From assembly GCA_020186115.1 (NCBI GenBank), contig WSYJ01000013.1, positions 372,001 to 436,000 of the forward strand: a stretch of DNA of 64,000 nucleotides. The letters run 5' to 3'. Source of the DNA: Histomonas meleagridis. Its lineage: Eukaryota > Parabasalia > Tritrichomonadida > Dientamoebidae. Positions 1,164-26,471 of the stretch are shown here, piece after piece (positions within the stretch are counted from its first letter, which is position 1; every line of letters begins with the position of its first letter). A program made the position numbers and the translations under genes. Below the pieces are notes generated by a model, which was not told the DNA's origin, ran no database searches, and worked only from the letters and a program-made list of their open reading frames with translations.

Positions 1164-2087
1164 TAAATTTGTCAAATAACTCCCCCAAAAATTATTGAAA
1201 CAATTGTATCGGCTGCATTATCGTTGCTTTTTGTTAAGTTTATTAATTCAAATATTGAAAAAGCAGTGGTTAATTGTGATGTGACCTCAAAAAAATAAGT
1301 GGATTCGCGATCAGAAAATTGAAATGGCCCTAATTTCAATATATTTTTGGTCGGTGTACAGGATTACAAAAAGAAATTTTACCACAATTCGATTATTTAA
1401 CCGTAAACAGTTTGGGGTATCCCACGTTCAAATGAATATCGGTCTTTTTCTTCTAGCAAAAATATTTTTATCAACAAACTCAAAGACTAATATTTACACG
1501 TAACAAAGTCAATTCTCATGTATAAGTTTATACACTTTCTCTCTCTACAATAAATCAATTGATTATCAAACCTTTATCTTCAGTTAATGCACTCACAAAA
1601 ATTGAAATTGTTTTATAGTCAAATTCTATGTAAGAAATACTATCAACCAAATAACAAAATGAATTTTGTAATTTCTTACAATGATTGCTTTTTTGTGAAT
1701 ATTTCATTAAAAAAAATTATCTAAAAATGTTATAACTTAAATGTATAACATCTCGCGCTTATTCTTTATATTTTTAATTCATTTTTTTCCTTTCATATTT
1801 TAATCATTACACAAAATCTTATTTTATTTATATAAAATATGTGGATTATATTTTTTTAATGTCAGTGTCAATAAAATTCAAGGTATCAGTCTTTATTTTA
1901 CGATATTAAAACATCACTAAATTTACACTTTTTTAGATATTGTAAATGTTTAGCAGTGTAATTAACAATTAGAAACAGTGCTTAATGAGAACTTTTGGTC
2001 AGATTTTCCTCTGGTTCTATTGTTTGGTCAAATGTTCAAATGCGAATTTTTTTGAATAATTTACATTTAAACAAAAATTTTGCTGTG
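1164..2087. other. Intergenic, AT-rich
   Basis: This is the divergent spacer between the coiled-coil gene and the kinase relic. I see no coding segment or RNA gene. The part next to the left gene holds a Myb-site-like box at 1218-1225. The rest is low-complexity A/T sequence. Confidence 0.6.
1218..1225 (-). promoter_or_regulatory. Myb-site-like promoter box AACGATAA
   Basis: On the minus strand this reads AACGATAA, about 55 nt upstream of the coiled-coil gene's ATG. It matches the AACGNT core of the Myb recognition elements described in Trichomonas promoters. Similar boxes recur upstream of about ten genes in this window. Confidence 0.4.
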
Positions 2088-3106
2088 ATGGATGAAGAAG
2101 GTGGAATTTCCCCTACCACAACTTCAAGGTATACAATTATTACCGAGGTTGGGCGTGGGGGTTACGGAAATGTTTTTAAAGTCTTATATAATCACACTGG
2201 TGAAATTGTTGCATTAAAAAAAGTTAATACATTTGCATTGCACAATGGTCTCCCTCAATCATTCTACAGAGAAATGAAATGTCTCAAAGAAATGAACAAT
2301 GAAAATATAATTAAACTCAAAGGAATTGAACATAATAGAAATGAACAATGCTTATATTTGGTCTTAGATTACTGTGAATATGACTTAGCAGGATTGATAC
2401 GTATTAATTCACTGTCTTTCGAACATAAGAGAGAATTCATAAAAGAATTACTTAAGTAATTACTTAATGCAGTATATTCAATGCATCAAAAAGGTTATAT
2501 TCATCGCGATATCATATCATAAAACTTGGTTATCCTGAATTAGCTCGAAAATTATACCAACAAAATAGACCTTTAACACATAAAGTCGTAACTCCTTCAT
2601 ACAGAGCACCAGAACCTATTCTTGGAGATCCACATTATGATCAAGCAGTTGATGTATGGAGCCTTTTTTGTGTTATATATGAAATAATAACAGGAAAAGT
2701 TCTCAATAAACCCTCTACATCAAGCGATATATTACGGCTTGACTCTATATTTAGAATTTGCGGTTCTCCAAATGAAGATAATTGGCCAAGTTTTCAGCAA
2801 TTACCAAAAGCTCAATATGCTTCGATGACATCTCTTTATGACTCCAAAATTGAAGAGGTTCTACAAAATACTCTCTCATATGAATTTATGGAAATTAAAG
2901 ATTTGATCAAATCAATGCTTCAATTAGATCCAAAGAATCGAATTTCCTTAGAGACAGCACTGTCAAACCCGTTCTTATATGAATCATTTGAATTACCAAA
3001 GTTATCAATTCCTGAATTCCATGTAATGGATGTTATTTATGAACCATTAAACATAATTAAGGTGTCTGGTCCTGTAACCAGACCAAAAAGAATTGTTCCT
3101 CCATAA
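2088..3106 (+). pseudogene. Decayed CDK-like serine/threonine kinase
   Basis: The first half (ATG at 2088) has a good kinase N-lobe: glycine loop GRGGYGNVFKV, VALKK lysine, a PITALRE-like segment (NGLPQSFYRE) and the C-helix region. The frame then meets TAA at 2457-2459 inside a 12-bp perfect palindrome, TTACTTAAGTAA. After it the kinase sequence resumes in the same frame (LLNAVYSMHQKGYIHRD). Right after HRD-I the catalytic loop (KPxN) is missing and the frame changes near 2510-2518. The next segment reads IKLGYPELAR where a kinase has (I)KLxDFGLAR, so the DFG motif is also lost. From there an open frame continues through RAPEPIL and DVWSL to a normal C-lobe ending at 3106. Losing HRD-KPxN and DFG together with two frame disruptions cannot be fixed by one base, so this is a real pseudogene of a CDK9/CDK12-like kinase, not a sequencing slip. 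Confidence 0.85.
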
Positions 3107-3239
3107 CTTTTGCATAAGGAATTTGACTTCGTGTCTTTTTCCAGATGTTTTCTTAGATATAACAATTCAAAATCAACTTCGTGTTGATATTATTGCGTCA
3201 TTTTTTCTGTTAATATACTTTTAATGACTTAACTTAACT

Positions 3240-3258
3240 CAATGACTTCGAGTCATTG
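3240..3258. repeat. Short perfect hairpin
   Basis: CAATGACT-TCG-AGTCATTG is a perfect 8-bp stem with a 3-nt loop, about 130 bp after the kinase relic. Its function is unknown. Confidence 0.5.
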
Positions 3259-3366
3259 TGTTTAACCTTTACTCTTTTTAACTCTTCGTGCGTATACTCT
3301 ATTTTTTAATGTTTGTGCTAATTAATAAACTCTTTTTTTAGAAACAATTTATTTTTTTAATTTATA

Positions 3367-3470
3367 CATCAAACTTTGATGCTGTTTCAATTTTTCACTA
3401 TTGAATTTGATCGTCAGCGCATCAAAGTTTACAAAATTCGATTTTAGATTTTGAACATCAAAGTTTGATG
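3367..3470. repeat. Cluster of CATCAAAGTTTGATG inverted repeats
   Basis: CATCAAACTTTGATG lies at 3367-3381 and its reverse complement CATCAAAGTTTGATG at 3456-3470. An 11-nt part copy is at 3420-3430. Each 15-mer is itself nearly palindromic (arms CATCAAA/TTTGATG). The cluster ends 14 bp before the ATG of the next gene, so it could be a regulatory site. Confidence 0.55.
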
Positions 3471-3484
3471 TTGTAATTAGAAAA

Positions 3485-3877
3485 ATGAATTTTTTCCAGT
3501 TTGCGCAGACCTCAAAGGATAATGTGAAACTGACGCCAAACATTGTTCAACCTACAAAGATTGCTAATGATATGTTTAGTATGATGAATGAAAAAAGTCA
3601 GCAATCACAAGAAAGAGGGATAAGTTTTGTTGAATTCCCTAAAAGTAATGTTAATATTTCTTATTCAAGTGGTGGAACTGTAAGTTCACTTCCAATGGAA
3701 GAAATAAATTCAGAAAATGCATTCGAAATGGTTAAAAAACTGGAAAATGAATATTTGGATTTCTCCCAATGGATGCATCAGCAAGAAGTTTACCTTCTGC
3801 AGTTCAAGGACATGATAGAAAAATCTACGAAAGAAGTACAGGAACTAATGAATGAAATGCAATCAATATCAAAATAA
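3485..3877 (+). CDS. Small hypothetical protein with C-terminal coiled coil
   Basis: This 130-residue frame starts at ATG 3485. The first 70 residues are polar and probably disordered. Residues 75-130 (from NAFEMVKKLENEY onward) have the hydrophobic spacing of a helix or coiled coil. It has no signal peptide, membrane segment or motif that I recognise. The layout, a flexible part followed by a coiled coil, is loosely like nuclear pore or adaptor subunits, but that is only a resemblance. The gene is convergent with the Rab gene downstream. Confidence 0.6.
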   Translation: MNFFQFAQTSKDNVKLTPNIVQPTKIANDMFSMMNEKSQQSQERGISFVEFPKSNVNISYSSGGTVSSLPMEEINSENAFEMVKKLENEYLDFSQWMHQQEVYLLQFKDMIEKSTKEVQELMNEMQSISK

Positions 3878-4733
3878 ATAAAAATTTCTGATTTTTATGT
3901 TAATCCTTAAGAAGTTCTTTAATAAAAAAAAACATAAAATTATTATCAGTTCTCATTTGTATAGAGATGAAAGATATTAACATATGAATAAATGATATTT
4001 ACTTTAAGCAAAAATTGCTTTAGCCTTCGTAATATGAAAGATATTTTGCACACTTAATTTATTGTTGAACTCTGAACTGATATAATAAGGTACTGTTTTA
4101 ATGCGTTCATGAAATTGTAAATAAATATAAAAACATTGAACTTTGTTTCTTAATGAAGGTGATTTTAAACTGTTTTCGCATTCATTATAACTTAAAAGCT
4201 ATTAGAATTTAGATAGACTCTTATTGAAACTAAATTGACTTTGAATAATATCATACAAATTATTCACCAATGTAGTTTATAAAATTAAAGGCTCTTAAAA
4301 AGATTTTGTTGTGAGTTTATTTCAATAGAAATTTTGATACCATGAATATAATACGAATAAAAAGAACAAAAATATGAAAGTAAAATTTTTATTATTAATA
4401 GATATTATGCAAAAAATAGATTTATTGTGTATGTAAAAAAAGAAAATTTAACATTTTTTATTAAATTATTGATCGATTAAGATAAAACATTAATAGTAAT
4501 TATTTTAATAACATACCATTACATTTTTAAAAAGCTATTCGAAACTTTAAATTAGAATAACTTTTTTTCAGCTTGTAATACATTATACATATATATGTCT
4601 ATCAAAGCAATAATTCCATTTACATTTTATTTACACATTTAAATTAATTTATATGTTTAGAGAAGAGATTATTCATCAAAAATAAACACCATATTTTACA
4701 CATTGACAGTTTATTGTTGTATGTGCACTCACA
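3878..4733. other. Intergenic, AT-rich 3' spacer
   Basis: This is the convergent spacer between the small hypothetical gene and the Rab gene. It is low-complexity A/T sequence and I see no gene or RNA in it. Confidence 0.6.
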
Positions 4734-5327
4734 TCAACAGTTGCAGCCTTTATCTTGGTTGTTATTTTCAATTTCGACGCTTGTTGGTATTTGTTTTCCA
4801 CATATTTTATGAGCACATTTTCCAGCTGCGAGGAACAATTCCTTTACACCATTTCCTGTAGAAGCTGATGTCACATAAAATCCTTCGGCTTTATATTTTT
4901 TTATATATGCCTTTGAATCAGCACATATTTTAGAAACTTGTTCAGTTGTTAATGTATCTTCTTTTGTTAAGACAATGAAAATCAAACATTCAGGTACCTG
5001 TGATAAAACACGGTTTACCCATATTGAAATATTTTCTGCGTTAAGGTTTTCTTCATCAAAACAAACAAATGCAATATCTGAATCTCTATAAAACATTCCA
5101 ACAACTGATTGGTACTTTTCTTGTCCTGCTGTATCCCAAATGTGTAAAGTAACATTACAATCTTCGGAAATTTCGATAGTAGTTTCACAAAAAGCAGGTG
5201 CAACTGTAGTTTGTGTATTCTTTTCGTAAGGCTGTTCGAAAAATGTATTGATCAACGTCGTTTTTCCGACGCCTGATGGTCCCACCAATATAATTTTAAT
5301 TGGCCTTAATCCCTCAGTTTCGGTCAT
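4734..5327 (-). CDS. Rab-family small GTPase (divergent)
   Basis: A membrane-traffic GTPase of 197 residues. I place the start at the ATG at 5325-5327 (MTETEGLRP); the frame is open 29 codons further up, but those residues are not like a Rab N-terminus. Visible motifs are the P-loop GPSGVGKTT (about residues 16-24), WDTAGQEKY (switch II) and the prenylation end CNC. Two guanine-contact motifs differ from the consensus: LTKED replaces NKxD, and SAS replaces SAK. The switch I effector region is also unusual (QTTVAPAF). It is therefore a trichomonad-type divergent Rab whose organelle cannot be assigned from sequence. It lies 160 bp from the UGGT-like gene on the same strand. Confidence 0.85.
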   Translation of the reverse strand: MTETEGLRPIKIILVGPSGVGKTTLINTFFEQPYEKNTQTTVAPAFCETTIEISEDCNVTLHIWDTAGQEKYQSVVGMFYRDSDIAFVCFDEENLNAENISIWVNRVLSQVPECLIFIVLTKEDTLTTEQVSKICADSKAYIKKYKAEGFYVTSASTGNGVKELFLAAGKCAHKICGKQIPTSVEIENNNQDKGCNC

Positions 5328-5485
5328 TTTTACGCGAGTAACTTTTTGAATTAATTCTGTCACAATGGCCAAAAGTGCCTTTTGTATTATGTAAAGTTCA
5401 GAAAAGATGAACACAGTTTATTTTACTCAAAAATGTTTTCAAACTTTTTTTTAGTGAAATCACAGAACCAAAGAAATATATATTT

Positions 5486-8400
5486 TTATAATTCTTGATA
5501 AGCATCTTGTAATATTTGATAATATTCTCTTCCCAAATATTTAAAAGAATCAGCTTCACACATCATTAAAGCTAAAGCCTTTTGTACATTTCTTTGATCA
5601 TTATGCATCGAACAAAATGCTGTTGTCTCAGGCAACGTCATTATTTGTAACTTCATTTGAAGTATATTAAACAATTCGTCGTCGATAGATATCAAAGCTT
5701 GTAAATTCCTTATATATTTCTCATATAAATCTCTATATAAATCACCGCCACCAACTTCTCTCCATTTAAATAGACTTATCCAAAATATTGCAGTCGAATG
5801 ATAAGGTCGTTTAAATCTTCTTTCGACAAATATTTGGTTATTCCAATAAAGGTTTCTTGCTCGTGATGAAGATATCATTGGTGCAGCAACACAACAATCT
5901 TCAAGATCAAGTTTGGTAAATACTGATACGTTTCCTCTGAATATAGTTCCTTGATCAGCAAACATTACATGATCAATATCAGATGGAAATAGCAAGTCAA
6001 TGACACCGAATTTTGAAGCTTTGTAATAAAACAATACGTCATGAGGACGTGTCATGTATCGTGGCCATATCATTGGTAAGTTAATTGTTTCGATGTTTGG
6101 TGGGTTACCTTTTCTAAATGATCCGAACATCCAAAATCGTACTTCTTGTGTCGTATTATGGATAAGTGTATATAACATCATACGCGTTTGATTTTCATAT
6201 GGTGGACCTGAAGCAAATGAAAATATATTAAACTTGTTATCAGTCTTAAATTTGATTTCTTCATAACTTGGTGTTACAAAGCGTGTTTTAGCAACTAAAA
6301 AATCATTACTAAATTCTTTCTCAATTAATCCTCTGGTCGCATATTTACCTATTGGTAATACTGGTACAAAAAGTCCATTCTTAATAGGACTACGTCGATC
6401 CCAACCAATTTGTACTATTTTCGATCCATATGAAAATAGATATGTAGCAATACCAGTGATAATTACTTCATTTTCATTATGGAAATATGCCCAATTTGAT
6501 GGGAAGTTAACATTTGCTGTACTTAGTTCATATTTCGATGAAAAGATAATTCCATCTGTAAATGTTACAGGGATATAACATTGTTGTAAATGTGGATAAT
6601 TTTGGATTTGAAATGGGAACTTAGAAATTACTGGTAAGAATTTAACATTCGCAATATTATTATCAATAAGTTGCATCATCATTTCTACAGTGGATTGAAA
6701 TCCATTCGAAAATGGACTCATAACTATAGCCCATTCAAGTGGCGATTGTTTTTCAACATTAATAATTAATGGCGTATTTACATCTGGTGGTCCAGAACGT
6801 GTAATTCCATTTAATGCTTGTGTAGAACGCCACATAAGAACATAAAATAATTGTTGAATTGTTAACTTAGGTACGTTTTCTCTAAACCCAAGCATGACAT
6901 AATATAATGCATAACTTAATTCTGATGAATCTAATGGATGATCAAATACTAATGGACCTACAATAGTTTTACCATAACGTATTAGTTTTATGTTTTGTGA
7001 ATTAATTTTCCTTACTTCAAAATGTGATGAACTTAAATAAGATTCAGGTGGCTCAGAATCAACATAAAAAACAGGAATTCGATTTTCAGCTTTATCATCT
7101 GATATAAAAACAGGTTTTTCTTTTAACATTGAATTAATATAATCTAAAATTTGTTGTATTGGAATTCCATCAAGTGAAATCATATTATGGAAATCAATTT
7201 GAAGTGGCGAATTAATTGTCTCTAATGGAATACCATTATCATGTAAGAATTCTTCAATGTTTGTTTCATTATTAATCATTGCATCTTTAGCATAATCTTG
7301 CATACGTTTTGCATGTTCAAGTATTGCTGTTTCAAGTTCTACAAAAATTGGATTTTCGCGTATAACTTGACCATTTATTATGACAGTGGTCTTTTTAATT
7401 TCATATTTGTTTATAAATTCTTCACATTTCTGTATTAATTCATGTGCATTACTTAAGTTCATTAATGAGTTAAGATTCTTCCATTTAATTTCAGGATTCG
7501 TTTTAGAATATGCAGATTCGAATTTTTGTGATAAAATTCCTTTCATCAAAAATTCACATGCTGTACGTGGACCAAGTGTTAATAGTGTGTTATAATATGC
7601 ATACATTATATTCTTTTCTGTTGAGTTATTTAAATCTCCAATAAGAAATACTTCAAATCCAAATGGATTCTCGAATTTAGAATATTCAAGCATTTTATCA
7701 ATTATTGGTACTGTCTCATGTGAATCTAATGTAAGGAATACTTGGATACGAAGTAATGTTTGCGCATGACGTAGAAAATCTATTGGATTTATCGCGTTAA
7801 GATTATAAACATTTCCCCATCGAATACGGATATTAAATAAATCATGATATTCTAAGATACGAGTTGTGATATCGGGAATAAGCGGAATGAATTCATATAC
7901 TTTTCGATATGGTTTGGAATATTGTATCTGTGAATATGTTTTGAAATCATAATCAAGACTTCGAAGAATTTGGATGGATTGCATTTCATCAATTAATGTG
8001 TCTAAGATTTCTTGCTCATTATTACCGACAGAACGTCCATTGATTATGGAGAGTTGTGGAAGTTGTTCAAAATCATTTTTATCATATTCAGCTCGAACTT
8101 CAGGATTAACAAATGATCGTGAAACAGTAGGAAAATGAATTCCTGGACTATGTATGATTTCACGAGCTTTTCTAATACGATCACTTTGGTCAGAAAATGA
8201 AAACATTTCGGAAACAAATTTATATTGAAAATCATTTGAATCAAAATTGTTGATTGGTTGATCGAGATTGGCTGACCAGCCACGGATAATGGGTCTAGAA
8301 TCAGGAATTGGATTAAGAATGGCTGCCTTCGGATGGAAATATCGAAAAGAAAGTGAAAGCTTAAGAAGTCCAAGCATATAATGTGGAACAACATCACGAA

Positions 8401-8605
8401 GTGCATCTGTAATGGTGAGAATGTTTGTTTCTTCGAGATTGGCAAGAGTTTGTTGAACAGTAGGAATGGCTTCTGGCATAAGATGTTCAAAAAATAGGAT
8501 AGTTTCATCATAAGGTGATGAATCACTCCAATTACCTAGAGCAACCATTGTCCTTTCAGGATCTTCTGTAGAGAAGGCAAAGGTGAAAATAGTAATAAAC
8601 AACAT
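5486..8605 (-). CDS. UGGT-like ER glycoprotein folding sensor, GT24-like domain with altered DxD
   Basis: This 1039-residue protein starts with a hydrophobic signal peptide (MLFITIFTFAF). It continues with the UGGT N-terminal pattern (VALGNWSDSS.., thioredoxin-like sensor region) and ends in a GT24-like domain from about residue 790. UGGT re-glucosylates misfolded N-glycoproteins in the ER, using UDP-glucose and a metal bound by a DAD motif. Here the matching stretch reads FADQGTIFRG, so DAD has become DQG (residues 884-886). Flanking landmarks remain: IFSFASG, the VDLLFP-like stretch, LPETTAFCSMHND. The protein is also much shorter than typical UGGTs (about 1500 residues). The C-terminus YQEL is similar to the xxEL retrieval ends seen on ER UGGTs. 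I infer an ER protein that may sense unfolded clients but may no longer transfer glucose. Its promoter shares a 20-nt motif with beta-amylase. Confidence 0.75.
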   Translation of the reverse strand: MLFITIFTFAFSTEDPERTMVALGNWSDSSPYDETILFFEHLMPEAIPTVQQTLANLEETNILTITDALRDVVPHYMLGLLKLSLSFRYFHPKAAILNPIPDSRPIIRGWSANLDQPINNFDSNDFQYKFVSEMFSFSDQSDRIRKAREIIHSPGIHFPTVSRSFVNPEVRAEYDKNDFEQLPQLSIINGRSVGNNEQEILDTLIDEMQSIQILRSLDYDFKTYSQIQYSKPYRKVYEFIPLIPDITTRILEYHDLFNIRIRWGNVYNLNAINPIDFLRHAQTLLRIQVFLTLDSHETVPIIDKMLEYSKFENPFGFEVFLIGDLNNSTEKNIMYAYYNTLLTLGPRTACEFLMKGILSQKFESAYSKTNPEIKWKNLNSLMNLSNAHELIQKCEEFINKYEIKKTTVIINGQVIRENPIFVELETAILEHAKRMQDYAKDAMINNETNIEEFLHDNGIPLETINSPLQIDFHNMISLDGIPIQQILDYINSMLKEKPVFISDDKAENRIPVFYVDSEPPESYLSSSHFEVRKINSQNIKLIRYGKTIVGPLVFDHPLDSSELSYALYYVMLGFRENVPKLTIQQLFYVLMWRSTQALNGITRSGPPDVNTPLIINVEKQSPLEWAIVMSPFSNGFQSTVEMMMQLIDNNIANVKFLPVISKFPFQIQNYPHLQQCYIPVTFTDGIIFSSKYELSTANVNFPSNWAYFHNENEVIITGIATYLFSYGSKIVQIGWDRRSPIKNGLFVPVLPIGKYATRGLIEKEFSNDFLVAKTRFVTPSYEEIKFKTDNKFNIFSFASGPPYENQTRMMLYTLIHNTTQEVRFWMFGSFRKGNPPNIETINLPMIWPRYMTRPHDVLFYYKASKFGVIDLLFPSDIDHVMFADQGTIFRGNVSVFTKLDLEDCCVAAPMISSSRARNLYWNNQIFVERRFKRPYHSTAIFWISLFKWREVGGGDLYRDLYEKYIRNLQALISIDDELFNILQMKLQIMTLPETTAFCSMHNDQRNVQKALALMMCEADSFKYLGREYYQILQDAYQEL

Positions 8606-11731: not shown

Positions 11732-14700
11732 ATGTGGGGAAAATGGCGAAAATTAAATTCTATTTTATGCTTTACTATCAAAAAAATCGAGACACAAAGA
11801 TCGTATGATGGTCAATTTTATGTTGAATGGACTCGTGGATCATCATCTGGAAAAACGGATACATTTCCACTTGATGAAAATAACCAAATATTATTTAATT
11901 CAAACTTCGAAACAAAATGTACAATTTTTCAATCTAGAGCAGATGGTTCATTTCGCCCCAAAAAAGTTAAATTGATTTGTTTTCGTAAAACAAAAAAGGC
12001 AAGCAAAATCTTCGGCAGCTTATCTATTGATGTTTCCAAAGCATTCAGCACGTTAGAAGTTATTAACGAAAGTTCTGAAATGGAAACCGCACATTCCCAC
12101 GCCCCTGTTTTATTTGTATCATACAGAGTTATCCCCAAAGGATCCGAAGAATTCCTTAATGTTGATACAAATGATGTTTCTTTTATCGGTGATGTTGAGA
12201 ACAAAAGAGTAAGTCTTGATCAATGGGATGTCACAGAAATGACATCTGAAAGTTCATTCTCAATTCCTATTGAAACACAATCAAAGCATAACAAAAGAAG
12301 AAAACACCATAGCAAACAAAATGCAGATGAAGTAAGTGTTGATGGATCTTCACAAAGTAAAAAGAGAAAACATAAAAAACATACCGAAGAACAACAAGAT
12401 GATGAATTAAGTACTACATCAGCTGATGTTGAGAAAAAGAAAAAACATCGGAAGAAAAAAGCTAAAGAACCTTCAAACAATGAAGAAGTTGAACAAAGTA
12501 AATTGGTTGAAGAACCAAATAATAAATCATATTCTAAAGACGAAAATGAAACAATGAGTGAAAATGCATCAACTAGAAGTAAAAAGAAAATCAAGAAAAA
12601 GAGAATTAAGAATAAAAAATCAGAAAAAATTGATAATGAAATTGATATTCTTGGGGATGATTTGGCAAGCAATTATTCAGTTGATAATAAAAGCACAAAG
12701 AGAAAAAGAAAGGGAAAAAAGGAAAGAAAGAATAAAAGCGAAAATAAATCTGATGAAGAAAAAACAGAGAAAAATATGGAAGCAGAAGAAACTCTTGAAA
12801 GAAATATCGAAATTTCAGAATCTGATAACAAAGAATCAAGTAATAATAACGAAGCGATAAATAAAGAGGAATCTGAAAAGGAATCAAAATCTGAAAAGGA
12901 ATCAGACAAAGAATCCGAAAAGGAATCAGAAAAGTCAGAACCAGAAAAGTCAGAATCAGAAAAGGAATCAGATAAAGAATCAGAAAAGGAATCAGATAAA
13001 GAATCAGAAAATGAATCAGATAAAGAATCAGAAAATGAATCAGATAAAGAATCTGAAAAGGAATTAGATAAAGAATCCGAAAAGGAATCAGAAAAGTCAG
13101 AACCAGAAAACTCAGAATCAGAAAAGGAATCAGATAAAGAATCAGAAAAGGAATCAGATAAAGAATCAGAAAATGAATCAGATAAAGAAGCAGAAAATGA
13201 ATCAGATAAAGAATCTGAAAAGGAATTAGATAAAGAATCAGAAAAGGAATTAGATAAAGAATCAGAAAAGGAATCAGATAAAGAATCCGAAAAGGAATCA
13301 GATAAAGAATCCGAAAAGGAATCAGAAAAGTCAGAATCAGAAAAGGAATCAGATAAAGAATCAGAAAATGAATCAGATAAAGAATCAGAAAAGGAATCAG
13401 ATAAAGAATCAGAAAATGAATCAGAAAAGGAATCAGATAAAGAATCTGAAAAGGAATCAGACAAAGAATCAGAAAAGGAATCAGAAAAATCAGAATCAAG
13501 TAAAGAGTCAGAAGAAAAATCTGAATCAGAAAGGGAAAGTGAAGAAGAAGCAGAATATAGAGAAAGAACAATTGAACTTGAAGATTCTGACAATGAAGCA
13601 AACTCAAAATATATATCAGAAAGCGAAAGTTTGAAGAAAGAAGAAGAAGAACGATTAAGGAAAGAAGAAGAAGAACGATTAAGGAAAGAAGAAGCAGAAA
13701 GACTACGAAAGGAAGAAGAAGAAAAACTTCATAAAGAAGAGGAAAAACGATTAAGGAAGGAAGAAGAGGAAAGGCTTCGGATCGAAGAGGAAGAAAAACT
13801 TCGTAAGGAAGAAGAACAACAACTTAGGAGAGAAGAAGGGCAAAAATTGATTCTAGAAGAAGAAGAAAGATTACGAAGAGAAGAAGAAAGACTTCGATTC
13901 GAAAGTGAAAAGATTCTTCTTAAAGAATCTGAAGACAAACAAATCAAAGAAGAGGAAGAACGGTTAAGAAAAGAAGAGGGAGAAAGGCTTCTTAAAGAAA
14001 ACAATGAAAAACTTCAAAGAGAAGCTGAGGAAAAAATCATGAAAGAGGAAGAAGAAAAAACAAGAAAAGAATATATAGAAAAGATAAAACAACAACAAGA
14101 AGAAATGTTAAGAAAAGAAGAAGCTGAAAGACTGAAAAGAGAAGAAGCGGACACTCATCAAAGTGATGAAAACTCATTAAGAAAAGAAGAAGATGAAATA
14201 TTTATCAGAGAGAAAGAAGAACTTACTAGAAAAGAAGATGAAGAAAAAAGAAAGAGAGAAGAGGAAGAGAATCTCAGAAGAGAAGAAGAAAAAGGATTGA
14301 GGATAGAAGAAAGAGAAATACAACTTAAAGAAGTCGAAGAAGTATTAAGAAAGGAAGAAGAAGAGCGAAGCAAAAGAGAAAATGAGGAAATACATAAAAT
14401 AGAAGATGAAGAAAGAAATTATAAAAACAAAGAAGAACTGTTAAGAAAAGAAAAACTAGAAGAAGTATTAAGAAAAGATGAAGAAGAACGAAAGAGAAGA
14501 GAAGATGAAGAATTACTTAAATTAAAAGAAGAAGAAAAAACTCATAAAGATGAAGAAGAACAATCGAGAAAAGAAAATTTGGAAGGAATATTAAGGAAAG
14601 AAGAAGAAGAGCGAAAGAGAAGAGAAAACGAAGTCATAAATGAAATCAAAGAGAAAGAAGAAATTCGTAGAGGTGAAGAAGAAAAGCAACTTAAAGAAGA

Positions 14701-17700
14701 AGAGGAACGGTTGAAGAAGGAAGAAGAAGAGCGAAATAGAAGAGAAGACGAAGAATTACTTAAAACACGAGAAGAAGAAAGAATTCACAAGGAAGAAGAA
14801 GAACAATCAAGAAAAGATAATTTGGAAGAAATATTGACAAAAGAAGAAGAAGAACGAAAGAGAAGAGAAAGTGAAGCAATGACTGAAATAGAAAAAGATG
14901 AGAGAACTCATAGAGATGAAGAAGATAAATTGAGAAAAGAAAATATGAAAGAAATATTAAGGAAAGAAGAAGAAGAAAGAAACAGAAGAGAAAATGATGC
15001 AATAACTGAAATAGAAAAGGATGAGATGACTCGCAAAGATGAAGAAGATAAATTAAGAAAGGAAAATATGGAAGAAATATTAAGGAAAGAAGAAGAAGAA
15101 AGAAATAAAAGAGAAAGTGAAGCAATGACTGAAATAGAAAAAGATGAGACGACTCGCAAAGATGAAAAGGATAAATTGAGAAAAGAAAATTTAGAAGAAA
15201 TATTAAGGAAAGAAGAAGAAGAAAGAAACAAACGAGAAAATGAAGCAATGCATGAAATTCATAAGGATGAGAGAACTCATAGAGATGAAGAAGAAAAGTC
15301 GAGAAAAGATAATCTGGAAAAAATATTGAGAAAAGAAGAAGAAGAAAGAAATAGAAGAGAAAGTGATGTAATAACTGAAATAGAAAAAGATGAAATGGCT
15401 CGCAAAGATGAAGAAGATAAATTGAGAAAAGATAATTTGGAAGAAATATTAAGGAAAGAAGAAGAAGAAAGAAATAGAAGAGAAAATGACGAAACGACTA
15501 AAATGGAAGAAGATGAAAGAACTCGTAAAGATGAAGATGATAAATTACGAAAGGAAAGATTTGAAGAAATATTAAAGAAAGAAGAGGAAGAAAGAAATAG
15601 AAAAGAGAATGAGGAAACTATTAAAGCAATAGAAGAAGAAATGCTTCGACAAGCAGAAGAAGAAAGATTAAGAAAGGAACAAACTGAAGAAATATTAAGA
15701 AAAGAAGAAGAAGGAAGACTACAAAAAGAGGAAGAAGAAAGAAATAGTGGTGAAGTTCAACAATTACAAAGTAGAGGTATTGGAGAAATAAGTAGTGAAG
15801 ATGATGAGAGAATAAGGTTTGAAAATGATGAAAAACTTCGAGTTGAAGAGGAAGAAAAATTAAGAAAAGAAGAAGAAGAAAGAATGAGAAAAGAAGACGA
15901 AAAACTTCGAATAGAATTTGAAGATAATATTAAAAGAGAAGAAGAAGAGCGAATTAAGAAAGAGGAAAATGAAGAGAAATATAGGAGAGATGAGGAAGAG
16001 AAATTAAGAGAAGAGAAAGAAGAAAATGAAAGAATTAAAATAGAGGAAGAAGAAAGACACAGAAAAGAAAAAGAAGAACAAATAATGAATGAAGAAAATG
16101 AAAGATTTAAGAATGACACTGATGAAAGACTTAGAATTGCAGAGGAAGAAAGAGTAAAGAAAGATGAAGAAGAAAGATTAAAGATAGAAGAAAACGAGAG
16201 ACTTCGAAGAGAAGAAGAAGAAAGAATAAGAATAGAACAGGAAGAAAACATCATTAAAGAGAAAGAAGAAAAACATCTTAGAGAAGAAGAGGAAAATCTA
16301 CTTAAAGAAGAGGAAGAACGATTAAAGAGAGAAAAGGAAGAAGTAAGTAAAATAGAAGAAGAAAGAATAAGAAACGAAGAAGAAAAGTTGAAAGAAGAAG
16401 AAGATAAAATAAGAAAAGAAGAGGAAGAAAGGTTAAAGAAAGATGAAGAAGAAAGGTCAAAGATAGAAGAAGAGGTAATATTAAATAGAAAAGATGAAGA
16501 TGAAAAAATTCGAAATGAAGAAGAAGAAAAGTTAAGAAGAGAAGAAGACGAAAGATTAAGAAATGTTGAAGAAAATATTAGAAAGGAAGAAGATCAATTA
16601 AGAATTGCTGAAGAAGAAAAACATCGAAAAGAAGAAGATGAAATACTTCTTAAGGAAGAAAAAGAAAGATCAAAGAAAGAAGAAGAGGAACAATTAAAGA
16701 GAGAAGAGGAAGAAAGATTGAAGAAAGAAAAAGATGAACAAATATGGAATGAAGAATTCGAAAGGAGGCTTAAAGATGAAGAAGAAATACTTCAAAATGA
16801 AGAAAAGGAAAGATTACAAAGAGAAGAAAATGAGCAATTCAAGAAAGAGGATGAAGATAAATATGATAAAGAAGAACAAGAAATGATAATTAGAGAAAAA
16901 GATGTGCTATTAAAGATAGAAGAGAATGAATTATTAAGAAGAGAGGAAGAAGAAAAACTAAGGAAAGAAGAAGATGAAAAACTTCAAAAACAAGAATTAG
17001 AAGTGATTCTTAAGAAAGAAGAAGAAAGACTAATTAAAGAAGAAGAAGAAAGAGCAAAGAGAGAACAAGAAATCGTTAGAAAAGAAGAAGAGGAAATATT
17101 GAATTCAGAAGGAGAAAGACTAAAGAAAGATAATGAAGAGAAATTAAAGATAGAGGAAGAAGAAAGAAAACGAAGAGAAGAAGAGGGAAATATACATCAT
17201 AAGGAAGAAGAAGAGAATCGGCTAAAGAAAGAAGATGAAGAAAGATTTAGGATATTCGAAGAAGAAACACATAACTGGGAAGAAAACGATAGATCAAGAA
17301 GAGAAAGCGAAGAAATACTAAGAAAAGATGAAGAAGAAAGAAAACAAAAGGATGAAGAAGAAAGGTTGCAAAGAGAAGAGAAAGAAAGAATTATGAAAGA
17401 TGAAGAGAAAGAGAAATTAAACAGAGAAGAAGATGAAAAGAAATTAAGAATAGAAATAGAAGATATTAATAATAATAAAGAGGAAGAAAGATTGAAGAAG
17501 GAAGAAGAAGAGAGAATTAGAAATGAAGAGAAAGAAGAAAAACTTCGAAAAGAACAAGAGGAAGGATATGTTCAAGAAAGGGAAGTGATTTTAGGAAAAG
17601 AAGAAGAAAAAGAGAATTTAAGAATAGAAGAAGAAATGCGTAACAAAGAAGAAGCAGAAAGAACGAGAAGAGAAGAAGAGGAAAGTATAAAGAAAGATGA

Positions 17701-20700
17701 AGAAGAAAAGATAAGAAAGGAAGAAGAAGAGAAGCATATACAAGAAGAAAAAGAAAGACTTCAAAAGGAAGAGGAAGAAAGATCGAGAAGAGTAGAAGAA
17801 GAGTTAGAACGAGAAAAAGAAAAAGAAAAACTTCAAAAGGAAGAGGAAGAAAAATTAAGAAAAGAAGAAGAGGAAGGTTTGAGAAAAGAACATGAAGAAA
17901 GATTAAGAGAAGAAGATGAAAGATTAAGAAAGGAAGTAGCCGAAATATTGGAAAGAGAAGAGGAAAAGAGAAAACATAAAGAAGAGGAAGAACGCTTCAG
18001 GAAAGAAGAAGAGGAAAGATTACAAAAGGAAGAGGAAGAGAGAATCCTTAAAGCGGAAGAGGAAAGATTACAAAAGGAGGAAGAAGAACGCTTACGTAAG
18101 GAAGAAGAAGAAAGAATACGAAAGGAAGAAGAAGAAAGATTACAAAAGGAAGAAGAAGAAAGATTACAAAAGGAAGAAGAAGAGAGGCTTAGAAAGGAGG
18201 AAGAAGAACGCTTACGTAAGGAAGAAGAAGAAAGATTGCAAAAGGAAGAGGAGGAAAGACAGAGAAAAGAAGAAGAGGAAAGATTACGTAAGGAAGAAGA
18301 GGAGAAGCATATGCAAGAAGAAAAAGAAAAACTTCAAAAAGAAGAAGAGGAAAAACTTCGAAAAGCAGAAGAAGAGAGATTACACAAGGAGGAAGAGGAA
18401 CGATTACGAAAAGAAGAAGCTGAAAGATTCAGGAAAGAAGAAGAAGAAAAATTGCACAAAGAGGAAGAGGAAAGGCTTCGTAAAGAAGAAGAAGAGAGAT
18501 TGAAATTAGAAGAAGAAGAACGAACAAGAAAAGATAAAGAAGAAAGATTACGACAAGAAGAAGAAAGATTGAAATTAGAGGAAGAAGACAGAATGAGAAG
18601 AGAAAAGGAAGAAAAACTCAGAAGTGAAGAAGATGAAAAGCATCTTCAGGAAGAAGAAGAAAGAATACAAAAGAACATTGAAGAAATTCATCATAAAGAA
18701 GAACAGGAAATGTTAAGAAGAGAAGAAGAAGATAAAGCAAAGAGGGAAGAAGATGAAAGACTAAGACAAGAAGATTTAAAGCGATTACAATTTGAAGAAG
18801 AAGAAAGACACCAAAGAGAACAACTGGAACTCATAAAGAAAGAAGATGAAGAAAGATTAAAGAGAGATGAAGAAGAAATGAATAAAATAGAAGCGGAAGA
18901 AAAACTCCAAAGAGAAGAAGATGGAGTAAAGAAAGAAAAAGAAGAAACTCTAAAGAGAAGTGAAGCAGAAAGAATAAGAACAGAAAATGATGAAAGAAAT
19001 CGACACGAAGAAGATGAAAAACTTCGTATAGAAGATAATGAAAGATTAATAAGAAAAGAAGAAGAAAGAATGAAACAGGAAGAAGATGAGAGAATAAGAT
19101 TAGAGGAAAATGAAAGAATGAGAAGAGAAGAAGATGAACTATTAAAGAAAGAAGAGGAAGAAAGATCAAGGAGAGAAGAAGCTGAAAGAATGAAACAAGA
19201 AGAAAACGACAGACTAAGATTCGAAGATGAAGAAAGAATGAGAAGAGAAACTGAAATTGAAAATCTAAGAAAAGAAGAAGAAGATAAATTGATGAAAGAT
19301 GAAGCTGAAATAAAGATCAGAGAAATAGAAGAAACACTTAGCACAGAAGATAAAGAAAGAACACGACGAGAACAAGAAGATGAAAGATTAAGAGAAGAAT
19401 CTGATAAATCAAAGAAAGATGAATCAGAAATAAGAATCAGAGAAGTTGAAGAAACACTTCAAGCAGAAGATAATGAAAGAATGAGGAGAGAACAGGAAGA
19501 TGAAAGAATGAGAATAGAAGAAGAAGATAAATTAATGAAGGATGTGTCTGAAAGAAAGAACAAAGAAATCGAAGAAAGACTTAAATTAGAGGAGGAAGAA
19601 AGAATGAAGAGAGAACAAGAAGATGAAAGATTAAGTGCAGAAGCTGATAAATTAATGAAAGATGAATTAGAAATAAAGATCAGAGAAATAGAAGAAACAC
19701 TTCAAGCAGAAGATAACGAAAGAATACGAAGAGAACAGGAAGATGAAAGAATGAGAATAGAAGAAGAAGAGAAATTCAATAGCGATAAATCTGAAAGAAA
19801 GAACAAAGAAATAGAAGAAATGCTTATAGTAGAAGATAATGAAAGAATGAGAAGAGAACAAGAAAATGAAAAATTAAGGACCGCGGAAGAAGACAAATTA
19901 ATGAAGGATGTGTCTGAAAGAAAGAACAAAGAAATAGAAGAAATGCTTATAACAGAAGATAACGAAAGAATGAAGAGAGAACAAGAAGATGAAAGATTAA
20001 GAGAAGAAGAAGACAAATCAAAGAAAGATGAATCTGAAATAAGGATAAAAGAAGTCGAAGAGGTACTTCAAACTGAAGATAGCGAAAGAAACAGCAGAGA
20101 AAAAGAAGATGAAAGAATGAGAATAGAAGAAGAAGAGAAATTCAATAGCGATGAAGCTGAAAGAAAGAGCAAAGAAATAGAAGAAATGCTTATAACATTT
20201 TATAATGAAAGAATGAGAAGAGAACAAGAAGAAATTTCAGGAGAAGTTGACAAAATAAGAATCGAACAAGAAGAAAGATTACAAAGAGAGATGGATGAAC
20301 AAATAAGAAGCGAAGAAGAAGAAAGAACAAGAAGGGAGAAAGAATATCTCCAAAGTGAAGAAAAGAGAATAATAAGCGAACAAGAGAAATTAAGACAAGA
20401 TAAAGAAGAACAATTCAGAAAAGATAAGGAAGAACAATTACAAAAGGAAGAAGAAAAACTTAGAACAGAGGAAGTGAAAGAAGAAAAAGAAGAAGACCTT
20501 GTAAATAGAGATGCAGAAATAATTATTAAAGAATTAGATGAGAAACTCCATGAAGAAGAACGAATTCTAAAGGAAGAAGAAGAGAAATTATTAATTGCAG
20601 ATAATGAAAGACTAGGAAAAGAAGAAGGAATTGGAACAGAAGAAATGAAATTAGGAAAAGAAGATGAAATTAGAGGTAATGAAGCAGAAATAATTCTCAA

Positions 20701-23700
20701 AGAATTAGAACAAAAACTCCAAAATGAAGAAGAAAGAATTCAAAAAGAAGAAGAGAAGTTTATTAAGGAAGATAAAGATGAAAATGAAGAAGAAAAACTT
20801 AGCGTTGAAATGAAATTAGGAAAAGAAGCAGAACTAAGAATGAGAGAAGCCGAAATAATTCTCACAGATTTGGAGCAAAAACTACATGAAGAAGAAAGAA
20901 TTCTCAAAGAAGAAGAAGAGAAATTACTTATCGAAGATGATGGAAGAGAAAGAATTAAAGAAATTCTTAGGAAAGAGAATTTAGCACAAGGAGAAGAATC
21001 TGAAAAAGAAGATGAAGGAACAATGAAACTCACAAAAGAAGAGATGATCAAACAATTAGAGGAAGAGAAATTGAAGTATGAAAATGACGAAAGAAATAGA
21101 AGAGAAGAAGAAGAGAAAATGAGAATTGAAGAAGAAGAAAGAAGTCGAAAAGAAAATGAAGAGAAAATTATAATTGAGGAAGAAGAGCGACTTAGGAAAG
21201 AAGAGGAAGAAAGAATAAGAAGAGAAGACGAAATATTAAAACTTGAAGAAGAAAAGAGATTAAGAAGTGAAGATGATGAAGAATTAACTTCAAGAGATAT
21301 CGAATTATTAGGAAGTGAAGAAGAAAAAGAGAAACAACAATTAAAGAACGAATCAGAAGATAAATTAATAAATGAAGAGAAACAGAAATTAAGGAGAGAA
21401 AGCAAAGAGAAATTAAGAATGAAAGAAGATGAAAAATTAAGATCACAAAAGGATGAAAAACTCAGGCAAGAAGAGGAAGACAAAATCAAAAATGAAGAAG
21501 AAGAAAAATCACACGAAAGAAATATTGAAATACATGAAAAAGAAAAAGAAGAAAAATTGAAACTTGAAAATGATGAGAAATTTAAACGAGAAGAAGAAGA
21601 AAAACTTAGAATAGAAGAAGAAGAAAAAATAAGAAACGAAAATTATGAAAACATAATTCGTGAAGTTGAAGAAAAATTAAGAAATAAAGAAGAAGAAATG
21701 AAATTAAGAGAAGAAGAAGAGATATCAAAACTTAACGAAAAAGAAGAAATATTTAGAAGAGAGGAAGAAAAACAAAGAATAGAAGCAGAAGAAAATCTAA
21801 TAATAGAAAAGGAAGCAAGGCTTAGAAAAGATGAAGAAGAAAAACTAAGAATTGAAGAAGATGAAAGAATTATAAGAGAAAGCGAAGAGAGAATGAAAGT
21901 TGAAGAAGAAGATAGAAGAAGAATGGAAGAAGAAGAAAATCTTCGAAGAGAAGAAGAAGAGAAACATAGAAAAGAAGAAAATGTGCAAATAAGAATAGAA
22001 CAAGAGAAATTAGCAATGGAAGAAGAAATTGCAAGAATAGAAGAATACATACACAAAATTGAAGAAGATGAAAAACTTCAAAGCATAGAGGATGAGAAGA
22101 CAAGAAAAGAAGAAGAAGAGAAGTCAATTCAAGATATAGAAAATAGGATAAGAACTATGTTAGATGATAGATTAAGAGAACAAGAGGAACAAAGACATCA
22201 TATGGAAGAAGAAGAAAGAATACAAAAAGAAGAAGAAAGTATTAGAATCGAAGGAAATGAGAAATTAAGATTAGAAGAAGAAATGAAATCAAGAAGTGAT
22301 GAATGTGAAAGACTTCTTAATGAAGCAGAAGAAAGAATTAGAAAAGAAAAGGATGAAGAAATGTTGCATAAGGAAGAAGATGAAAGACTAAGAATAGATA
22401 AAGAAATGGCTGAAAAGGAAGAAGAAAGAATTCGTAAGGAAGAAGAAGATAGATTAAGAAGAGAAGAACAGAATAAATTAAGAACAGAAGAAGAGGAAAG
22501 AATTCGTACAGAGGAAGAAAGAATTTTATGCGAAGAAGAAGTTTCAAGAAGAGAAAAACTTGAAATGCAAAATATAGAGGAAGAGAGAGTACGTAAAGAA
22601 GAAGAAGGCATAAGAATAGAAGAGGATGAAAGAATCAAAAGAGAAGAAAAACTTAAACAAGAGGAGGAAAGGCTACACAAGGAAGAAGAAGGTATGCTCA
22701 AGAAGCAAGAAGAAGAAAGACTTAGAAAGGAAGAAGAGGAAAGATTACGTAAAGAAGAAGAAGAAAGACTTCGAAAGGAAGAAGAGGAAAGATTACGTAA
22801 AGAAGAGGAAGAAAGACTTCGAAAGGAAGAAGAGGAAAGAATTAGAAAGGAAGAAGAAGAAAGATTACGTAAAGAAGAAGAGGAAGAAAAACTTAGAAAG
22901 GAAGAAGAAGAAAGATTACGTAAAGAAGAGGAAGAAAGAATTAGAAAGGAAGAAGAGGAAAGAATTAGAAAGGAAGAAGAGGAAAGAATTAGAAAGGAAG
23001 AAGAGGAAAGAATTAGAAAGGAAGAAGAGGAAAGAATTAGAAAGGAAGAAGAGGAAAGAATTAGAAAGGAAGAAGAGGAAAGAATTAGAAAGGAAGAAGA
23101 GGAAAGAATTAGAAAGGAAGAAGAGGAAAGAATTAGAAAGGAAGAAGAAGAAAGAATTAGAAAGGAAGAGGAAGAAAAACTTAGAAAGAAAGAGGAAGAA
23201 AAGAAACAAAAAGAAGAAAAATTACGTAAAGAAGAAGAGAAACTTCATAAAGAAAAAGATAAAACAAGTAAAGAAGCCAAGATCGTTTCCAAATCCGTCG
23301 AACTCTCAGATTATGATTCATATTATAGTGATGAAGACACATCAAGCGGTGATTATACTAATGACTATTCATCAAGTGACGAAAGTTCAACTGAAGAAGA
23401 AGCCATTGTTCCATTTACTTTCAAGACACCTGGCGACTACATCAAAATATCACTTTCCAATGTTTACACCCGTGATAGCTCCATTGCCTTCTATGATTCC
23501 AATAACAAATTTGCATTTCCGCCATCCATATTCCCTATATTCTCATCACTTATTGAATCCCAAATCTTTAATCCCAACAAAGTTGGTGATGAAGACTTTA
23601 CACCTCTTTGTTCATTATTTGGAACGCTTTATGCCTTAAATAACTTTAGTGATAGCAAAAAAGTTGAAACGCATTTCATCACAACACTTCTTCTTATTTT

Positions 23701-24430
23701 ACTTGTTCAAAATCGAACAGATTTCCCATCAAATCGCAAATCCATTTTCATTCGTTCAATAATCCCAACATTTAGTTCATATCAACGTAAAATATATTCG
23801 TCATTATTGACACGTTCAGACATATTAACAAATCGTTTTGCAACAGCGAAATTTGATTTTGATGATTTATATGCGGATTACATCGATTTCCTTTCGAACG
23901 TACGACAAATATTCCGTTTCACGAATGATATTAATTTATATCTTTTTGATCAATTCGTTAAAGATTTCGATATGAGAATTGCTAATAAAATACTTGCAAA
24001 TCAAACAAGATTTGCTTTTTCAAATGCTATGGTTTGGAATACATTGATTACTGCTGTCGAATCAGATGCAAATGTTTCATTCCCAGTTTCAAGACAAGTT
24101 GTGTCGATATTTTTACTCGCGCCAAATATATGTAAGGATCCCGATATGATTGACGATATTGCACCAGATTTACCTCCTGATGTTGTCGCGTTAATGCTAC
24201 TTGCTTATGACGTAAAGGATACTGTTCTCGGAGTTGATATAAACCCAATGGATTTCTTAATGAAGAAGAAAGTGGAGAAAATTTTGGACGTCGCAAATTT
24301 GCCACCGAAAGACGTAGGACCTGTACAAGGAATTGATGACGTGGTGTTAAATAGATGGTGTATTAGGAATAAGAATAATAAGATATTCGCAAAATTCCCA
24401 TACATGGTAAAATATGTTAGAGATAAATAA
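11732..24430 (+). CDS. Giant NT-C2 protein with 3,200-residue E/K/R helical array
   Basis: A single uninterrupted frame of 4232 codons. Residues 1-140 look like an NT-C2 (EEIG1/EHBP1-type) membrane-binding domain: [14 protein letters not shown], then a strand pattern ending [11 protein letters not shown]. Residues 170-330 are Lys-rich and polar. Residues 370-620 are tandem KESDKESE octads. Residues 633-3846 are almost only Glu, Arg, Lys and Leu/Ile in EEERLRKE octads. That pattern is typical of stable single alpha-helices or very long coiled coils (trichohyalin-like). An acidic Ser/Asp linker (about 3852-3890) leads to a 340-residue helical C-terminal domain that resembles the DIL-like domain found with NT-C2 in some eukaryotes (weaker call). 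By family, NT-C2 proteins link membranes to actin or organelles. At 0.15 nm per residue, 3,200 helical residues could span several hundred nm, so I infer a giant tether or cytoskeletal rod. The many antisense open frames inside it are composition shadows. Confidence 0.9.
12880..13500 (+). repeat. 24-bp coding minisatellite (KESDKESE)
   Basis: A 24-nt unit similar to AAAGAATCAGAAAAGGAATC recurs through this stretch with small changes and encodes Lys-Glu-Ser-Asp/Glu octads. Higher-order copies are visible: the block around a [13 protein letters not shown] junction occurs twice, near 12940 and 13100. That is a sign of unequal exchange. Confidence 0.8.
22700..23190 (+). repeat. 24-bp coding minisatellite (ERIRKEEE), near-perfect
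   Basis: The unit AGAATTAGAAAGGAAGAAGA(GGAA) repeats about ten times almost unchanged between roughly 22940 and 23160, flanked by slightly diverged copies. The high identity means this block expanded recently, unlike the older diverged array before it. It encodes the ERIRKEEE octad. Confidence 0.85.
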
Positions 24431-25253: not shown

Positions 25254-26471
25254 TTAGTGACTACGAGCAGCATGAACAGCCTTTTCACCTGCTTCTGTAA
25301 GGTTGCTAGCGGGAATGATTGGGAGGCCTGATTCCTTAAGTAATTTCTTACCAAGTTCAACATTTGTACCTTCGAGTCTAACGACGAGTGGGATCTTAAG
25401 TCCGACCTTCTTTACAGCTGCGATGACACCCTTAGCGATCATATCGCACTTAACAATACCACCGAAAATGTTAACAAGAATTGCCTTAACCTTTGGATTT
25501 GAACTGATGATAAGGAAACCTTCAGTGACGGCCTTCTCAGAAGCAGCACCACCAAGGTCGAGGAAGTTGGCTGGATCACCGCCGGATAATTTGATGACAT
25601 CCATTGTAGCCATAGCGAGACCAGCGCCATTAACAAGACATGCGATATCACCATCAAGTTGGACATAGTTGAGGCCATACTTTTCGGCACGAAGTTCCAT
25701 TGGGTTGACTTGTTTGAGATCGCGATAGCTGAAGATTTGTTTCTGACGATAGTGTGCGGCATCATCGAAGTTGAATTTGGAATCGACTGTAATGATACGG
25801 CCGTCAACTGTTTCGGCAAGTGGGTTAACTTCGACTTGTGTAGCATCTGAACCAACAAATAATTTCCAAAGTTTTTGCATTTCTTGAACACCACTTTCGA
25901 AAGCAGCACCTTGGAGACCGAGCTTCTTAGCAAGGCGCTTGGCGACGTCTTCTGTGATACCATCAACACCATCAAGAACTTCCTTGAAGATTGCATCTGG
26001 TTGGTTCTTAGCAACTTCTTCAATTTCAACACCACCTTGTGTGGAGGCGATGACAACTGGTGCTTGAGAAGCACGGTCAAGGAGAATTGCGAAGTATAAT
26101 TCACGCTTGATTTCAACTGGGTCAGAAAGCATAACACACTTGCAGAGAGCGCCTTCTTTTGTTGTTTGCTTTGTGCGAAGATGTCTGCCGATCATTTTAG
26201 CGGCAACTTGTTTGGCCTCTTCGGCGGATTTAACGAAATGAACACCTGACTTGAAACCATCTTCAACCCATGTGCCTTTGCCACGGCCACCAGCATAAAC
26301 TTGAGCCTTGACAACAACAGCTGGAAGACCAATCTTCTTGAAGGCTTCTGCGGCTTCATCTGGTGTGAAAGCAACTTGGTTGATACCGGCTGAAACGTTG
26401 AACTTGGCGCAGATTTCCTTGGATTGGTATTCGAGGATGTTGAACTTGCGAGAGAAGCTTGTTGAAAGCAT
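25254..26471 (-). CDS. Succinyl-CoA synthetase beta subunit, hydrogenosomal
   Basis: A 405-residue ATP-grasp enzyme that, with the alpha subunit, makes ATP (or GTP) from succinyl-CoA. In hydrogenosomes this is the substrate-level phosphorylation step. The first residues MLSTSFSRKF form a short Ser/Arg-rich presequence typical of trichomonad hydrogenosomal enzymes. The mature part starts NILEYQSKEI, as expected for this family. Other landmarks are the AGGRGKG ATP-binding loop, EVNPLAET (metal-binding Glu/Asn), NIFGGIVKCD (CoA/phosphate side) and RLEGTNVELG. Length is normal. TCACTTTT directly before the ATG resembles the trichomonad initiator (TCA+1YTW). Codons are GC-richer than in the neighbours, which suits a highly expressed gene. 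Confidence 0.97.
   Translation of the reverse strand: MLSTSFSRKFNILEYQSKEICAKFNVSAGINQVAFTPDEAAEAFKKIGLPAVVVKAQVYAGGRGKGTWVEDGFKSGVHFVKSAEEAKQVAAKMIGRHLRTKQTTKEGALCKCVMLSDPVEIKRELYFAILLDRASQAPVVIASTQGGVEIEEVAKNQPDAIFKEVLDGVDGITEDVAKRLAKKLGLQGAAFESGVQEMQKLWKLFVGSDATQVEVNPLAETVDGRIITVDSKFNFDDAAHYRQKQIFSYRDLKQVNPMELRAEKYGLNYVQLDGDIACLVNGAGLAMATMDVIKLSGGDPANFLDLGGAASEKAVTEGFLIISSNPKVKAILVNIFGGIVKCDMIAKGVIAAVKKVGLKIPLVVRLEGTNVELGKKLLKESGLPIIPASNLTEAGEKAVHAARSH

Follow-up and report, generated by a model that had tools for sequence, protein, structure and literature searches.

We asked what is encoded by a giant reading frame in the parabasalid Histomonas meleagridis, and what its product could do in the cell. 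The frame lies in a window of 64,000 nucleotides (the whole stretch of DNA analysed here; contig WSYJ01000013.1, C11:372001-436000) of a genome assembly with 43,276,120 bases in 121 contigs, which was the assembly used for our genome searches. A single intact frame runs on the forward strand from the ATG at 11732 to position 24430 (4,232 codons, then TAA). The encoded protein of 4,232 residues consists of an NT-C2 head, a Ser/Glu-rich spacer, a rod of ~3,160 residues rich in glutamate, lysine and arginine (E/K/R) and a folded tail. A first-pass annotation made from the sequence had described a 4,232-residue NT-C2 protein with an E/K/R rod, and the frame, the Pfam match, the composition and the period of eight residues reported below bear this description out. 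The architecture is well supported. From it we infer the function: with about an even chance, the product would be a motor-less tether, anchored to a membrane by its head and gripping an organelle, a vesicle adaptor or a Rab by its tail.

A single gene carries head, rod and tail

The rod contains no in-frame stop codon, whereas 125 would be expected from its codon-position composition and Markov simulations of the rod (n = 200) gave a mean of 206 stops and a minimum of 176. The other two forward frames across the rod (3,159 codons each) contain 251 and 336 stops. A non-coding simple repeat was rejected on these stop counts, on the comparisons of synonymous and nonsynonymous differences and on the helix scoring described below. 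Removal of the array as an intron was rejected as well: the Trichomonas-type 3′ intron motif was not found inside the giant gene within two mismatches, and elsewhere in the window it had 4 matches compared to 3.0 expected. Genes with an intron are reported to make up only 5.2-5.7% of H. meleagridis genes (PMC8529796).

Do the head and the tail belong to the same gene? The genome has 21 matches to NT-C2 and 17 to the tail of the giant protein, and 16 open reading frames (ORFs), assigned by place and frame length, carry both in the same head-tail order. It is well supported that the two belong together, and the idea of two adjacent genes run together was rejected. This count leaves out the 5 of the 21 NT-C2 matches that have no tail (one on contig C76, two on C55 and two on C120). 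The closest relative, L009, holds head and tail in one ORF of 1,075 residues (head 71% over 177 residues, tail 63% over 338, linker of 563 residues); together with the absence of the intron motif, this upholds the view of the first-pass annotation that the locus is one gene. The giant gene and L009 form a starred clade in both the tail tree and the head tree. Between them, the proportion of synonymous differences (pS) is 0.68 in the head and 0.70 in the tail, and the proportion of nonsynonymous differences (pN) is 0.17 and 0.24, respectively. As pS is well above pN, the giant gene is not a decaying copy.

The giant gene is the longest of the 16 ORFs. In 19 head-and-tail proteins (the 16 ORFs plus the database proteins P0003, P0005 and P0123), the linkers range from 42 to 3,718 residues, ~90-fold, with approximate borders. 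P0003 and P0005 also have E/K/R stretches, of 145 and 164 residues. The head-rod-tail plan is wider than this genome; its extreme length was seen only here.

The head is an NT-C2 domain and the tail is predicted to fold like that of myosin V

Residues 4-138 match the NT-C2 profile with 64.2 bits (cut-off 25.2). The AlphaFold2 model of the head has a C2-type sheet fold (beta-sandwich; predicted template modelling score 0.62), its best Foldseek match is the C2 domain of CEP120 (E 1.3e-6), and a basic stretch can be read in the translation near residues 75-92. The NT-C2 domain of EHBP-1 is described as binding PI(4,5)P2-rich endosomes via basic patches (PMC4894640), and that of EHBP1 as binding PI(3)P, PI(5)P and phosphatidylserine (PMC7442826). 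The head had been called membrane-binding at first: its NT-C2 identity stands, and membrane binding, known from these two reports for EHBP1 heads only, would have to extend to it by analogy.

At the other end, structure prediction confirmed the helical C-terminal domain that had been proposed, and its fold can now be assigned. By predicted structure and Foldseek, the overall fold of the tail model is that of the cargo-binding (globular tail, DIL) domain of myosin V/XI. Both ends are thus predicted to be folded domains, as the first-pass annotation had it. The DIL profile matches 8 of the 16 relatives at E ≤ 0.1 and exceeds its cut-off at 2 places in the genome. The predicted local distance difference test score (pLDDT) is ~34-36 over residues 1-30 of the tail model, the hinge region. 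According to PMC11006394, the DIL domain occurs only in myosin V besides Canoe's family, and several adaptors dock on the tail of myosin V; the titles of solved structures matched by Foldseek show it with Rab11. Because a myosin V/XI-like tail binds adaptors and Rabs, a link from a membrane to an organelle or vesicle would be favoured over one from a membrane to the cytoskeleton, which narrows the earlier proposal of a membrane-to-organelle or cytoskeleton tether; the tethering itself would follow by analogy.

Is there a myosin motor to go with this tail? A loss of myosins has been reported for metamonads (PMC3942036, PMC6881465). The myosin head profile had 0 matches in the H. meleagridis genome, a blank that is no proof alone, as the control genomes gave no signal either; by the same method kinesin had 13 matches. 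No motor match was found in residues 1-636 and 3757-4232 of the giant protein, nor in the whole of L009. The giant protein thus resembles myosin V/XI in its predicted tail fold and in the DIL matches of its relatives, and differs from it in lacking a motor head and a Pfam DIL match of its own, in showing no IQ motifs and in having only ~10% sequence identity to the myosin V globular tail.

The rod favours a single alpha-helix and is under selection in its clean octads

The rod (residues 641-3800) contains 1,157 E, 450 R and 413 K among its 3,160 residues (64% E/K/R), along with 248 L, 194 I, 29 G and no proline; the proline-free run extends from residue 459 to 3893 (3,435 residues). The E/K/R rod proper covers ~3,160-3,190 residues, and residues ~176-640 form a different, S/E/K/D-rich spacer, whose helix-pair score (residues 180-640) is near zero (0.10, no window reaching 0.25). 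The strict octad (E/D)3-(K/R/Q)-x-x-(K/R)-(E/D) occurs at 116 sites, or 29% of rod residues, compared to a mean of 7 sites in 50 shuffles, and the exact motif EEERLRKE is present 17 times. A large part of the remaining rod is either degenerate or repeats with a period of ~41 residues. Of the more than 3,000 residues of EEERLRKE octads that had been claimed, the length of the rod therefore holds and the uniform octads do not. EEERLRKE is near the E4[K/R]4 pattern, with one basic residue replaced by leucine. PMC5812594, a study of 24 eukaryotic datasets, reports repeated E4[K/R]4 octads to be extremely rare, the octad being unrepeated in natural single helices; the word Trichomonas is absent from the text of that paper.

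The hydrophobic power in the rod is 21.1 at a period of 8.0 residues, compared to 2.2 at 7 and 0.6 at 3.5. Opposite charges are paired at i,i+4 in 671 and 670 cases; shuffled sequences have 354 and 355. Like charges show this spacing in only 113 cases, compared to 772 after shuffling. The period of eight and this pairing of opposite charges, about twice that of shuffles, speak for a single alpha-helix rather than a heptad coiled coil, in line with the suggestion of the first-pass annotation. The mean charge-pair helix score of the rod is 0.38, compared to 0.19 for the shuffled rod and 0.50 for the Myo10 helix, on a home-made scale set by an EEEEKKK repeat and not that of the published program. 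In being E/K/R-rich, in its opposite charges at i,i+4 and in having no heptad seam, the rod resembles the ER/K single alpha-helix domains (e.g. Myo10), from which it differs by its thousands of residues with hinges and by its repeated octads, described as rare and unrepeated in natural cases (PMC5812594).

Is the rod sequence under selection? We compared each array with itself at a fixed lag, with indels unaligned and with stop codons dropped from the shifted-frame controls. In the cleanest octad array the pN/pS ratio at lag 8 is 0.09, versus 1.38 and 2.95 in the two shifted frames. The rods of two other family members give similar pictures (L021, pS 0.71, pN 0.06; L022, pS 0.69, pN 0.18), and the result is less clear for the whole rod at lag 8 (pS 0.60, pN 0.39) and for L009 (pS 0.76, pN 0.32). 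We read this as selection on the protein, which holds the clean octad parts while synonymous sites are scrambled.

How could such a protein work as a tether?

In the mechanism that we propose, the NT-C2 head would dock on an anionic or phosphoinositide-rich membrane, as EHBP1 does, and the myosin-V-tail-like domain would hold on to an organelle or vesicle by an adaptor or Rab, as in myosin V. The E/K/R rod, mostly a single alpha-helix with hinges, would separate head and tail by as much as ~0.47 micrometres when completely straight (474 nm at a rise of 0.15 nm for each of the 3,160 residues; less if bent). It would have been lengthened by in-frame duplication of octads and of ~41-residue units, and the encoded rod residues would then have been kept by purifying selection. 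In a broader version, which we regard as doubtful, a myosin-less eukaryote would have kept and multiplied the myosin V cargo tail as NT-C2-anchored motor-less tethers with octad-helix spacers of graded length, the giant gene marking the half-micrometre extreme of this series, with selection acting on its length.

Several results weigh against this reading. The mean pLDDT of the head model is only 65.4. For the tail, the best Foldseek match reaches only E 2.9e-3 with a template modelling (TM) score of ~0.4, the VIA root mean square deviation is 5.5-9.6 Å, a Pfam scan of the giant protein's own tail gave no DIL match and its best Pfam match, HEAT_ULK4, had 19 bits, below the cut-off. When residues 3860-4232 were compared with database proteins of ~2,328-7,406 residues, 0 of 2,050 candidates scored at E ≤ 0.001; not even the giant protein itself was recovered, and hence this search encountered no full-length model of it. 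In the rod, 80% of the 28-residue windows have a helix score of at least 0.25 and 20% are weak, the weak ones clustering near residues 1313-1347, 2793-3093 and 3406-3506, and the longest unbroken E/K/R stretch by composition is 592 residues, shorter than the 851 of L022 (556 in L021, 469 in L009). The second array with a 41-codon period has a pN/pS ratio of 0.82 (pS 0.42, pN 0.37), no better than shifted frames, and selection on the spacer repeats is unclear (pS 0.29, pN 0.25, ratio 0.83). Of the one very long helix in the first-pass annotation, the single-helix-like character stands and the unbroken length does not: the rod is probably a long spacer that resembles a single alpha-helix over most of its length, interrupted by hinges or weaker segments, and not one perfect 3,160-residue helix. 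A literature search found no length record by which such rods, said at first to be among the longest, could be ranked.

Could the rod instead dimerise as a coiled coil and make the protein a golgin- or EEA1-like tether? Coiled coils are a frequent prediction for E/K/R repeats like these, and stretches such as residues 2793-3093 contain more hydrophobic residues and score poorly as a single helix. However, the hydrophobic power at 7 and 3.5 is a small part of that at 8, and the best-register a/d hydrophobic fraction is 0.35, compared to 0.36 in the shuffled rod, with 4% of windows at ≥0.6; judged by this hydrophobic period and a/d register, dimerisation seems unlikely to us. The length of the rod could also result from neutral repeat inflation, such that any E/K/R linker would suffice and replication slippage lengthened this copy without gain in reach. 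The ~90-fold range of linkers among the relatives, the 563 residues of the sister gene and the tandem arrays with several periods agree with this. Conversely, the rod has no stop or proline and its clean octads are strongly constrained, which constrains the sequence of the rod and not its length. With a linker only about one seventh as long in the sister gene, neutral inflation has to be taken seriously as a rival, and we assign it a low probability.

The least probable alternative, in our opinion, is a cytoskeletal or cortical scaffold, in which the rod would bind microtubules or pack into fibres of the parabasalid cytoskeleton. Large fibrous structures are typical of parabasalids, and the single helix of INCENP is described as binding microtubules (PMC4571873), but the net charge of the rod is -442 over 3,160 residues, which is unfavourable for the acidic microtubule surface, and the tail resembles a cargo-binding domain.

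The motor-less tether that we prefer can be compared to known proteins. EHBP1/EHBP-1 also has an N-terminal phosphoinositide-binding NT-C2 domain and a Rab-binding region at the other end (PMC4894640, PMC7442826), whereas the tail of the giant protein is myosin-V-like and its rod vastly longer; the CH and bMERB domains of EHBP1 had no Pfam match in residues 1-636 or 3757-4232 or in the whole of L009. Rhizobium-directed polar growth (RPG) shares the NT-C2 head, a disordered Ser-rich region and a long helical C-terminal part, but that part is predicted as a coiled coil, and no globular tail is described there (PMC9991063). Golgins and EEA1 likewise reach by a very long rod from a membrane end to a trafficking-factor end; theirs are heptad coiled coils, whereas the rod here has no period of 7. 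Each part is known, and the combination, scale and setting are unusual. Our literature search found no paper joining NT-C2 with Trichomonas, nor NT-C2 with the DIL domain. Zhang and Aravind (2010, Gene 469:18) reportedly classified NT-C2 and may already list NT-C2/DIL fusions.

If the proposal is true, the cargo-binding tail of myosin V has stayed in use, free of the motor, in a lineage reported to be myosin-less; it is encoded at 17 places in one genome, in most of them fused to a membrane-type head. In addition, the giant gene provides a natural example of an octad E/K/R rod thousands of residues long; among natural single helices, this pattern has been described as extremely rare and not repeated. 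Moreover, the paralogues with their graded linkers offer a natural series in which to ask whether the gap between membrane and organelle depends on spacer length.

Features of the giant gene

Table 1. Parts of the giant gene, with positions in the window
Feature	Position	Strand	Evidence
Whole coding frame	11732..24430	+	4,232 codons plus TAA; 0 stops in rod
NT-C2 head, residues 1-175 (Pfam match 4-138), basic stretch ~75-92	11732..12256	+	Pfam, predicted fold, translation
S/E/K/D-rich spacer, residues 176-640, repeats at 391-585	12257..13651	+	Composition, tandem repeats
E/K/R rod, residues 641-3800, similar sequence on to ~3830	13652..23131	+	Composition, stops, period
Array with 41-codon period, residues 869-1330	14336..15721	+	Tandem Repeats Finder (TRF) period 123; lag 41 pS 0.45, pN 0.20
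Octad stretch, residues 2061-2260	17912..18511	+	Lag 8 pS 0.96, pN 0.19
Second 41-codon-period array, residues 2461-2834, indels present	19112..20233	+	TRF periods 123, 243, 366
Cleanest octad array, residues 3654-3822	22691..23197	+	Lag 8 pS 0.52, pN 0.07
Rod end and acidic Ser/Tyr hinge, residues 3801-3893	23132..23410	+	Read in translation
Tail, residues 3894-4232, myosin V/XI globular-tail-like fold	23411..24427	+	Profile and predicted structure

Other members of the family

L021 (C71, 2,634 residues) and L022 (C1, 1,431 residues) have near-perfect octad arrays and fall into a different clade from the giant gene; the lag-8 hydrophobic autocorrelation of the L021 rod is 0.92. L026 (C1:446300-453000, minus strand, ORF 234-5474, 1,747 residues) has the same tail and no NT-C2 match, and before the tail it carries Lys/Asn/Glu-rich repeats with many prolines; it was included in the tail tree and omitted from alignment A3 and from the head tree. 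The two tail-less NT-C2 matches on C55 are ~13 kb apart and share a stretch of nearly identical sequence.

A search with the L009 protein gave 334 matches. Among the 120 listed, many have unrelated Pfam domains, none has a DIL accession and the L009 ORF itself does not appear; many of the matches look like low-complexity charge matches. With an alignment of 8 paralogues as the query, 2 proteins, P0122 and P0123, were found among 7,996 scored candidates. P0002 is H. meleagridis GPJ56_002122 (921 residues) and starts at the 30th residue of the 950-residue L023 ORF; the deposited models P0002 (921 of 950 residues, L023) and P0122 (552 of 616 residues, L004) both start at an internal Met, cutting into the NT-C2 head.

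Other genes in the window

A minus-strand ORF of 1,039 residues at 5486-8605 carries a C-terminal glucosyltransferase-24 domain and resembles the glycoprotein folding sensor UGGT. Two ORFs of glycosyl hydrolase family 14 (beta-amylase type) lie at 53444-54559 (minus strand) and 61664-62416 (plus strand), the latter covering the first half of the family profile only (1-195 of 402). The 390-residue ORF at 55398-56570 (minus strand) has a weak match to Omp85 (21.5 bits, cut-off 24) and is a possible candidate for an outer-membrane assembly protein, putatively of the hydrogenosome. Finally, the giant gene is adjoined, in convergent orientation, by an ORF at 25254-26471 (minus strand) with ATP-grasp and CoA-ligase domains of the succinyl-CoA synthetase beta type.

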